Assembly (NCBI RefSeq): GCF_900537085.1
Contig: NZ_UNRE01000001.1
Coordinates: 749,163 to 813,162 of the forward strand
Reading direction: 5' to 3'
DNA: 64,000 nucleotides
Source: Agarivorans sp. Alg241-V36
GTDB lineage: Bacteria; Pseudomonadota; Gammaproteobacteria; Enterobacterales; Celerinatantimonadaceae
A program made the position numbers and the translations under genes. The notes under the pieces are model-generated. The model worked only from the letters and a program-made list of their open reading frames with translations. It had not been told where the DNA came from and searched no databases. Below, one piece after another: positions 37,342 through 39,492 of the stretch. Every line of letters starts with the position of its first letter. The stretch's first letter is position 1.

Positions 37342-39492
37342 ATGTCGTTTGATGTAGATGAAGACATCTTACAAGACTTTCTCGTAGAAGCGGCGGAGAT
37401 CCTTGAGCAGCTGTCTGAACAGCTGGTTGATTTAGAAAAACGCCCAGATGACAGTGACTTGTTAAATGCCATATTCCGTGGCTTCCACACTGTTAAAGGT
37501 GGGGCGGGCTTTTTGTCATTAACCGAGTTGGTTGATGTTTGTCATGGTGCAGAGAACATTTTCGACACCCTGCGAAATGGTGGAAGAAGTGTTTCCCCTG
37601 AGCTGATGGATGTGATTCTTGAAGCGCTAGATTCAGTAAATGATATGTTCGCTCAAGTTCAAGCTCGTGAGCCTCTAACTCCAGCCTCTCCTGAATTAAT
37701 TGAAAGCTTACACCAATTGTCTCGCCCAGAGTCTGCCGACGAAGTGGCTGCAGAGCCAGAGCCAGAGCCAGAGCCAGAGCCAGAGCCAGAGCCAGAGCCG
37801 GTAGCAGCTGCGCCGAGTGCTGACGCAGGCAATATTGACGAAATAAGCGATGACGAATTTGAGCGTTTGCTCGATGAGTTGCATGGCTCAGGAGCTCCAG
37901 CTCCTGCCGCTGCGCCTAAACCCGCGCCAGCCGCTCCCGTAGCGAAAGCTGCCAGCGATGGTGATATTTCTGATGATGAATTTGAAAAGCTGTTGGATGA
38001 ACTTCATGGTTCAAAAGCTCCAAGTGCTAGTAAACCGGCAGCGCCCGTCGCCCCAGCCGCGAAACCTAGCTCAAATGGTGATGAAATTGGCGATGACGAG
38101 TTCGAGAAACTGCTAGACCAATTACATGGTGCTGGTAAAGCCCCAGACGCGAAAGCCGCTCCAGCTGCGCCAGCAGCTAAAGCAACACCTAAACCAGCCG
38201 CTAAAATTGAAGCTAGCCCTAAAGCGCCTGCTAAACCAGCAGCTCCGGCCAAGCCTGCTGCTAAGGCTGCTCCTGCCAAACAAGAGCCAGCAAAAGCGCC
38301 AGCTAAGCAAGCTGTGCCACAAGGCGAAACCACGGTCCGCGTAGATACTCGTACGCTAGACGATATTATGAATATGGTTGGTGAGCTGGTATTGGTGCGA
38401 AACCGCTTAGTGAGCTTGGGCCTTAATAGCAACGATGAAGATATGTCTAAAGCCACCGCTAACTTGGATGTGGTGACGGCGGATCTGCAAGGTGCGGTAA
38501 TGAAAACCCGCATGCAGCCAATCAAAAAAGTGTTTGGTCGTTTCCCTCGAGTGGTTCGAGATTTAGCACGAAGCTTGAAGAAAGACATCAACCTTGAGTT
38601 GGTGGGTGAAGATACAGATTTAGATAAAAACCTAGTTGAAGCTCTCGCTGATCCATTGGTTCACTTAGTTCGAAACTCAGTTGACCACGGTATTGAAATG
38701 CCAGACGACCGAGTGGCTTCAGGTAAACCTCGCACTGGTGTTATCCGTTTATCTGCCTCGCAAGAGGGCGATCACATCTTACTTAAAATCGAAGATGATG
38801 GCGCCGGTATGAATGCCGATAAGCTTAAATCTATCGCGATTGAACGCGGTGTACTTGATGCTGATGCTGCTGCTCGCATGCCAGATAAAGATGCTTATAG
38901 CCTTATTTTCGCACCTGGTTTCTCTACCAAGACGGAGATTTCAGATATCTCTGGTCGAGGTGTGGGCATGGACGTGGTTAAAACCAGCATTACCCAGCTA
39001 AATGGTTCAGTTGATATAGACTCACAATTGGGGCAAGGCACTACACTACAGATTAAAGTACCGCTTACTTTGGCTATTCTGCCAACTCTAATGGTTGATG
39101 TAGGCAAGCAAACTTTTGCTTTACCACTGACTAGCGTGAATGAAATCTTCCATCTTGACCTTACCAAAACGAACGTCGTTGATGGTCAAGAAACCGTGAT
39201 TGTACGTGACAAGGCTATTCCGCTGTTTTACTTACAAGACTGGTTGATTAGAAATGGTCAATCTGGAGAACGTAGTTCTCAAGGCCACGTGGTTATCGTA
39301 CAAATTGGCCCGCAACAAGTCGGTTTTGTGGTTGATAATCTGATTGGCCAAGAAGAAGTGGTGATCAAAGCCTTAGACCAATTATTGCAAGGTACTCCAG
39401 GTATGGCTGGTGCGACAATCACTAGTGATGGCCGTATTGCTTTAATTCTTGATATCCCAAGCCTGTTGAAACGCTACGCTCGTAAGATGTAA
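37342..39492 (+). CDS. cheA: Chemotaxis histidine kinase CheA
   Basis: A 716-residue sensor kinase. P1 carries the phospho-histidine H49 (GFHTVKGGAGF). The region from about 130 to 330 has no recognisable P2 fold; it is an E/P run (16 residues) and an A/P/K-rich linker with three DDEFExLLDxLHG motifs (168-182, 209-223, 249-263). P3 dimerisation, P4 kinase (NSVDHGIE N-box and GAGMNADKL) and the P5 CheW-like domain follow. In bacteria with parC/parP, the CheA linker carries a localisation (LID) domain that binds ParP; this linker is the likely equivalent. Confidence 0.96.
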   Translation: MSFDVDEDILQDFLVEAAEILEQLSEQLVDLEKRPDDSDLLNAIFRGFHTVKGGAGFLSLTELVDVCHGAENIFDTLRNGGRSVSPELMDVILEALDSVNDMFAQVQAREPLTPASPELIESLHQLSRPESADEVAAEPEPEPEPEPEPEPEPVAAAPSADAGNIDEISDDEFERLLDELHGSGAPAPAAAPKPAPAAPVAKAASDGDISDDEFEKLLDELHGSKAPSASKPAAPVAPAAKPSSNGDEIGDDEFEKLLDQLHGAGKAPDAKAAPAAPAAKATPKPAAKIEASPKAPAKPAAPAKPAAKAAPAKQEPAKAPAKQAVPQGETTVRVDTRTLDDIMNMVGELVLVRNRLVSLGLNSNDEDMSKATANLDVVTADLQGAVMKTRMQPIKKVFGRFPRVVRDLARSLKKDINLELVGEDTDLDKNLVEALADPLVHLVRNSVDHGIEMPDDRVASGKPRTGVIRLSASQEGDHILLKIEDDGAGMNADKLKSIAIERGVLDADAAARMPDKDAYSLIFAPGFSTKTEISDISGRGVGMDVVKTSITQLNGSVDIDSQLGQGTTLQIKVPLTLAILPTLMVDVGKQTFALPLTSVNEIFHLDLTKTNVVDGQETVIVRDKAIPLFYLQDWLIRNGQSGERSSQGHVVIVQIGPQQVGFVVDNLIGQEEVVIKALDQLLQGTPGMAGATITSDGRIALILDIPSLLKRYARKM
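37753..37800 (+). repeat. Hexanucleotide repeat (GAGCCA)8 in cheA
   Basis: Seven GAGCCA units and one GAGCCG encode eight Glu-Pro pairs. The unit is two codons, so slippage would change linker length without breaking the frame. Confidence 0.95.
37843..38130 (+). repeat. Three spaced DDEFExLLDxLHG motifs in CheA linker
   Basis: The motif occurs at residues 168-182, 209-223 and 249-263, about 40 residues apart, separated by A/P/K-rich spacer. The DNA of the copies has diverged at third positions while the peptide is kept, which suggests selection on the peptide. Confidence 0.9.

Follow-up and report, generated by a model that had tools for sequence, protein, structure and literature searches.

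The P2 or CheY-binding domain of CheA (PF07194, PF09078) is a folded domain located between the Hpt and dimerisation domains. Berry et al. (PMC10782961) report that over half of the CheAs they surveyed are without P2; they call the linker of these proteins extended and unstructured, and the word 'motif' does not occur in their text. A study of P. putida treats CheA as a five-domain protein and names one part the CheY-binding (P2) domain (PMC11978298). The FliM motif LSQxEIDALL is described as an established CheY-P site that is disordered until bound and folds on binding (PMC6700473; PMC9126983), and CheZ and FliM are reported to use one common face of CheY (PMC3774744). In Vibrio CheA, a site termed LID is reported to lie between P2 and P3, before the dimerisation domain, to be bound by ParP and to occur only alongside ParC/ParP (PMC7534058, PMC5706961).

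The window, the whole 64,000-nucleotide stretch of DNA that was analysed, encodes a CheA of 716 aa (37342..39492, + strand) with the order Hpt, linker, dimerisation, kinase and CheW-like domains. Pfam places Hpt at residues 8-99, H-kinase_dim at 330-389, HATPase_c at 437-576 and CheW at 583-711. The P1-P3 linker (residues about 128-329, approximately 200 residues; 37723..38328, + strand) is of low complexity and rich in proline and alanine. It carries three copies of a motif of 15 residues each, namely ISDDEFERLLDELHG (residues 168-182; 37843..37887), ISDDEFEKLLDELHG (residues 209-223; 37966..38010) and IGDDEFEKLLDQLHG (residues 249-263; 38086..38130), all on the + strand and with the consensus I[SG]DDEFExLLDxLHG. 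The threefold occurrence of DDEFExLLDxLHG had been claimed in the original prediction; rereading of the open reading frame reproduced it at the same residues, and the nucleotides correspond to the span 37843..38130. A chance origin of the repetition was ruled out, as none of 20,000 shuffles of the 203-residue linker yielded the exact core.

A match to the P2 or CheY-binding models PF07194 and PF09078 was not found in this CheA at E values up to 0.1, nor in any of 62 aligned CheAs (0/62) at E values up to 0.01, although these models are insensitive, since the CheAs L249 and L255 look P2-like by eye and yet gave no match. Four positive controls did match, with the CheY-binding model found in the CheA of E. 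coli K-12 and the P2 model in those of a Thermotogaceae, a Clostridium and a Sporomusa record; among six CheAs of other classes a single sub-threshold CheY-binding match was obtained (L100). In an AlphaFold model of the window CheA, built on the 62 CheAs, the pLDDT of the linker is mostly below 50, except for three isolated helices at residues 170-180, 211-221 and 251-262 with a pLDDT of about 80, which coincide with the three motif copies. These short helices are the only structure predicted between P1 and P3. This predicted structure is firmer evidence than Pfam for a missing P2 fold, and with both in agreement the idea that the window CheA conceals such a fold was rejected. The earlier suggestion of a linker that has short helices in place of P2 is thus well supported for this protein. 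The linker copies share with P2 its position and, presumably, its task, but they differ from that folded domain in being three short helices only.

Relatives were collected by whole-genome searches. Within the order, 97 of 148 genomes gave a CheA match (E up to 1e-100), and within the class 150 of 276 did so (E up to 1e-70). From the first search 69 stretches and from the second 60, picked for spread, were added to the loci supplied initially. From 190 sources, including the window, two without CheA, 21 duplicates and two with a low BLAST score were removed (L101, a motif-free CheA of another class, and L174, with two copies), which left 165 distinct CheAs, that of the window included. At least one copy was detected in 160 of the 165 with a profile trained on those same CheAs, a broader spread than had first been noted. 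The five negatives (L099, L100, L186, L187 and L189) are all distant CheAs. Ten of the CheAs have one copy, 45 have two, 86 have three, 16 have four and 3 have five. Variant copies in L053, L124, L143, L154, L166, L178, L180, L181 and L185 were seen by reading and by the profile, not by regular expression.

In a named set of 80 records, the best of 593 confirmed relatives and no census, together with E. coli K-12, the motif occurs in 46 of 81 CheAs. The bearers include Vibrio, Photobacterium, Shewanella, Alteromonas, Moritella, Aeromonas, Pseudomonas, Stutzerimonas, Marinobacter, Dyella, Stenotrophomonas, Lysobacter and Acidithiobacillus. The motif was not found in the other 35, which comprise CheAs of Campylobacterota, Firmicutes, Nitrospirae, Bacteroidetes, Rhodocyclaceae and other records, the distant gammaproteobacterial L249 and L255, E. 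coli K-12, and L223, whose contig ends before the linker. The names of taxon groups in this set, and the label 'F6-like' used below, are our own assignments by likeness and recall. CheAs of the Nitrospirae, Rhodocyclaceae and Aromatoleum records (L256, L252 and L248) have neither a Pfam P2 match nor the motif, which shows that docking of this type is not universal. In the linkers of the other-class CheAs L099, L100, L101 and L189 another short repeat (FGFF, YGLF or FGLF) occurs one to four times. One record titled as a Klebsiella pneumoniae MAG (L218) has a CheA of the present class on its contig and is probably misbinned.

Conservation is strongest in the core of the motif. In copy 3, F254 and L258 are invariant across the 62 aligned CheAs, and E253, L257, D259 and G263 reach at least 90%. 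Motif position 6 is F in all 264 distinct profile-selected copies, a count favoured by the profile selection itself; L185 has one copy with L at this position. Pairwise comparison of the window copies gave a pS of 1.12-1.14, at which synonymous sites are saturated, and a pN of 0.11-0.18, which indicates that the copies are old and maintained by selection at the protein level. The distance between copies has a median of 41 residues and a range of 26-105 (277 spacings), and such loose spacing is what would be expected of tethered linear motifs.

Two other proteins of the window end or begin with comparable peptides. FliM (26031..27059, + strand) has the N-terminus MSDLLSQDEIDALLHG, of a known class of CheY-P-binding peptide, and CheZ (36590..37330, + strand) has the C-terminus DQDDVDDLLSSLGF, of a known class of CheY-binding peptide; the FliM start and the CheZ end, NDQDDVDDLLSSLGF, are as given in the original prediction. 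The E. coli CheZ ends with ASQDQVDDLLDSLGF. A profile of 61 FliM N-termini, run over whole CheAs, scored highest at a motif copy in 157 of 160 proteins, and in 156 of them in a single register, with L-S-Q-D-E-I-D-A-L-L over I-S-D-D-E-F-E-x-L-L. For a profile of 163 CheZ C-termini the figures were 152 and 151 of 160; because the 160 CheAs are homologous, neither set of counts represents independent trials. In 20 hand-picked diverse CheAs the FliM 10-mer fell in one register in all 20, which was equalled by 2 of 1,500 composition-matched acidic-and-aliphatic 10-mers and by none of 1,500 random ones. The CheZ 10-mer did so in 15 of the 20 and was equalled by 73 of 1,500 matched and 9 of 1,500 random 10-mers. 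Permutation of profile columns gave p values of 0.0035 for FliM and 0.17 for CheZ, and shuffling of the peptides 0.0055 and 0.15. The FliM score was reached by 0.05% of the N-terminal 25-mers of 4,224 other ORFs, the CheZ score by 1.6% of C-terminal 25-mers.

When 7,120 non-CheA ORFs were scanned, FliM N-termini made up 58 of the top 100 sites; 15 of the top 20 were neither FliM nor CheZ and only one was a FliM N-terminus, single unrelated proteins scoring above FliM. With the strict 15-position motif profile all non-CheA ORFs stayed well below the threshold of 14 bits, the best score being 4.2, for a FliM, and the FliM likeness is therefore visible only with substitution-smoothed profiles. 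A caveat is that I-[ST]-x-x-E-F, with which the motif opens, is a helix-capping pattern of general occurrence. Judged from these comparisons the FliM likeness of the CheA copies is short but real, and the CheZ likeness is marginal and at most suggestive. The pattern proposed at the outset as shared by all three proteins thus holds for FliM, where it is significant against matched controls, and is marginal for CheZ. FliM LSQxEIDALL aligns residue by residue with CheA I[ST]DDEFExLL, which gives the CheA copies an in-register EIDALL-like sequence, and in both cases a short helix (predicted in CheA) lies in an otherwise disordered segment. They differ in that the FliM peptide is a single N-terminal copy at the motor, with I or V where CheA has F, whereas the CheA copies are internal, repeated and extended by DxLHG. 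The CheZ peptide D[DE]VDxLLxxL aligns with DEFExLLDxL in the constant register, but it is C-terminal and single and has V in place of F.

The reading that we favour, and hold to be somewhat better than an even proposition, is that the linker copies are multivalent CheY-docking helices standing in for P2. The proposed partner, CheY (36193..36576, + strand), closely resembles that of E. coli in its FliM/CheZ-binding face. The positions W58, T87, A90, Y106, K109, F111 and K119 are taken by us to be the FliM/CheZ contacts. The loci supplied 146 distinct CheYs, of which all 146 have W58, T87, K109, F111 and K119, 145 have Y106 and only 103 have A90; the face is mostly conserved. We infer for the linker copies CheY binding, the face bound, multivalent capture and the kinetics. 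Helix-forming short linear motifs would dock CheY, and perhaps also the receiver domain of CheB, to CheA where other CheAs hold a folded P2. Each copy would sit on the alpha4-beta5-alpha5 face of CheY, like the N-terminal helix of FliM. With several such weak sites strung along a flexible tether, CheY would become locally more concentrated around the phospho-histidine of P1. CheY-P could then depart for FliM and CheZ, which use the same face. Several points count against docking of CheY. A substrate dock should take unphosphorylated CheY, but FliM-type peptides favour CheY-P (PMC9126983), and F in the CheA copies replaces the I or V of FliM. The helix-cap pattern, the SHOCT matches described below, the unrelated proteins that score above FliM, the weak CheZ likeness, the reported ParP-binding site in this linker and the degenerate LHG ends in four genomes without ParC/ParP count against it as well.

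The window also encodes, downstream of cheA, a ParA-like ATPase, ParC (42306..43091, + strand), and ParP (43088..43906, + strand), which consists of an N-terminal region and a CheW-like AIF domain and is the rival partner via the LID. If the repeats were the LID, they would be docking helices for the AIF domain of ParP and would tether CheA to the pole. We regard this as unlikely, though it has several points in its favour: the reported site lies in this linker, the motif copies fit its position before P3 and form the conserved portion of the linker, and the LID shares with them the same class of CheA. Against it stands the distribution of the motif in genomes, which were picked for weak or missing ParC, plus controls, and in which counts are not frequencies. 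The window ParC matched at ortholog level (190 bits or more) in 35 of 44 chosen genomes, while the other nine gave ParA-like paralogs alone (140 bits or less). A ParP profile detected ParP (at least 73 bits) in six of 18 genomes, and CheW-like matches only (at most 33 bits) or nothing in 12; one ParC-less genome, G307, has ParP. Seven of 12 named genomes matched the ParP profile, the exceptions being Dyella, Stenotrophomonas, Acidithiobacillus, Hydrocarboniphaga and Lysobacter. Stenotrophomonas and Lysobacter have a ParC at about 200 bits, and the best ParC match of Acidithiobacillus, at 141.9 bits, is close to paralog level. In L183, L184 and L188 the gene 3' of ParC begins like ParP, which indicates that the profile overlooks diverged ParPs and that the ParC/ParP pairing is commoner than the profile suggests, a point in favour of the LID.

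After exclusion, for this reason, of six ParC-bearing genomes (G157, G293, G388, G277, Stenotrophomonas and Lysobacter), three of which are those of L183, L184 and L188, neither ParC nor ParP was found in 11 genomes, all drafts except Acidithiobacillus: G148, G155, G167, G170, G171, G298, G318, G406, Dyella, Hydrocarboniphaga and Acidithiobacillus. At the eight loci of the G-numbered genomes of this set, ParP-like N-termini were not found even with less stringent criteria, by which 19 of 20 known examples are recovered. At least one profile-positive motif is present in 11 of the 11, with an intact LHG or LYG end in seven and a degenerate one in four (EALLNQRD or EQLLQMRE in L154 and L178, AAHG in L185, LQS in L236). 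The mean copy number is nearly equal with ParC in the locus (2.3; 40 loci) and without it (2.0; 15 loci), and the LID gives no reason for the likeness to FliM. ParP as the sole partner was rejected on the 11 genomes, and the motif is probably not solely for ParP. The LID, taken here by its reported location, is said to occur only with ParC/ParP, whereas the motif occurs also where neither was found. The motif may serve both CheY and ParP, and its copies may overlap with the ParP-binding LID.

Two further readings are each quite improbable. In one, the copies dock not CheY but some other protein with a receiver domain, such as CheB (through that domain) or CheV; P2 is reported to dock CheB besides CheY (PMC2829493, PMC11978298), and an ORF at 39518-40642, named CheB-like by reading, adjoins cheA, but the copies resemble peptides known for CheY, not CheB. 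The other reading, just as improbable, makes the copies capped amphipathic helices, similar to SHOCT, that serve self-association of CheA or the holding of P1/P4. The SHOCT profile does match 37 of the 62 CheAs (E up to 0.01; best E 5.8e-08). Against this, the window CheA scores 17.3 bits, below the SHOCT cut-off of 27, the motif runs on as LLDxLHG and not as the K-rich tail of SHOCT, and one to five copies at a loose spacing of 26-105 residues are unlike a fixed packing element.

Docking of CheY by the linker copies can be extended, more tentatively and with slightly less than even confidence, to a whole class of CheA. In these F6-like gammaproteobacterial proteins P2 would have been replaced by a disordered, multivalent string of helices that mimic FliM. 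Variants of a single linear motif would then let the kinase, the phosphatase and the motor switch all hold CheY, and the three would compete for the same face of it. If this is true, the copy number (1-5) would set the strength with which the array retains CheY. No description of the linker motif was found in the open literature searched, a search that did not extend to the 2014 ParP/LID paper. The motif offers a testable answer to how the P2-less CheAs of many flagellated bacteria hold CheY. A conserved repeat resembling the CheY site of the motor can be mutated in species in which chemotaxis is already studied, and it invites re-examination of what the ParP-binding LID is.

Several minor observations were made at these loci. 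L154 and L178 (G318 and G406, two genomes of one family, in both of which neither ParC nor ParP was found) carry a longer variant repeat, such as LPEGxDPDGxITDDEFEALLNQRD, without the LHG end. In L183 and L184 the gene after ParC has a ParP-like start (LDDYLDELL and LDDYLDALL) and a CheW-type domain at its end, and between the two WDDLPxEVIxET occurs three times in L183 and once in L184. The genomes of Pseudomonas sp. 8AS (L198) and Stutzerimonas (L203) contain clear orthologs of ParC and ParP; for P. aeruginosa, PMC12410967 states that related genes are absent. The window FliH (NCBIfam match; 20291-21466, + strand) has an internal tandem duplication of units of approximately 43 residues, near 20318-20410 and 20447-20539, both of which end in a 13-residue stretch resembling the EIDALL pattern. 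An ORF of L167 from locus position 870 (+ strand), by its look a putative FliN, has ISQDDVDSLMDGG, a FliM-like CheY-binding pattern, in its first 23 residues. A CheW-like ORF of the window, named by reading (44000-44533, + strand), ends with LLSDEEWDEVSSL, a tail that recurs in relatives and is faintly motif-like.
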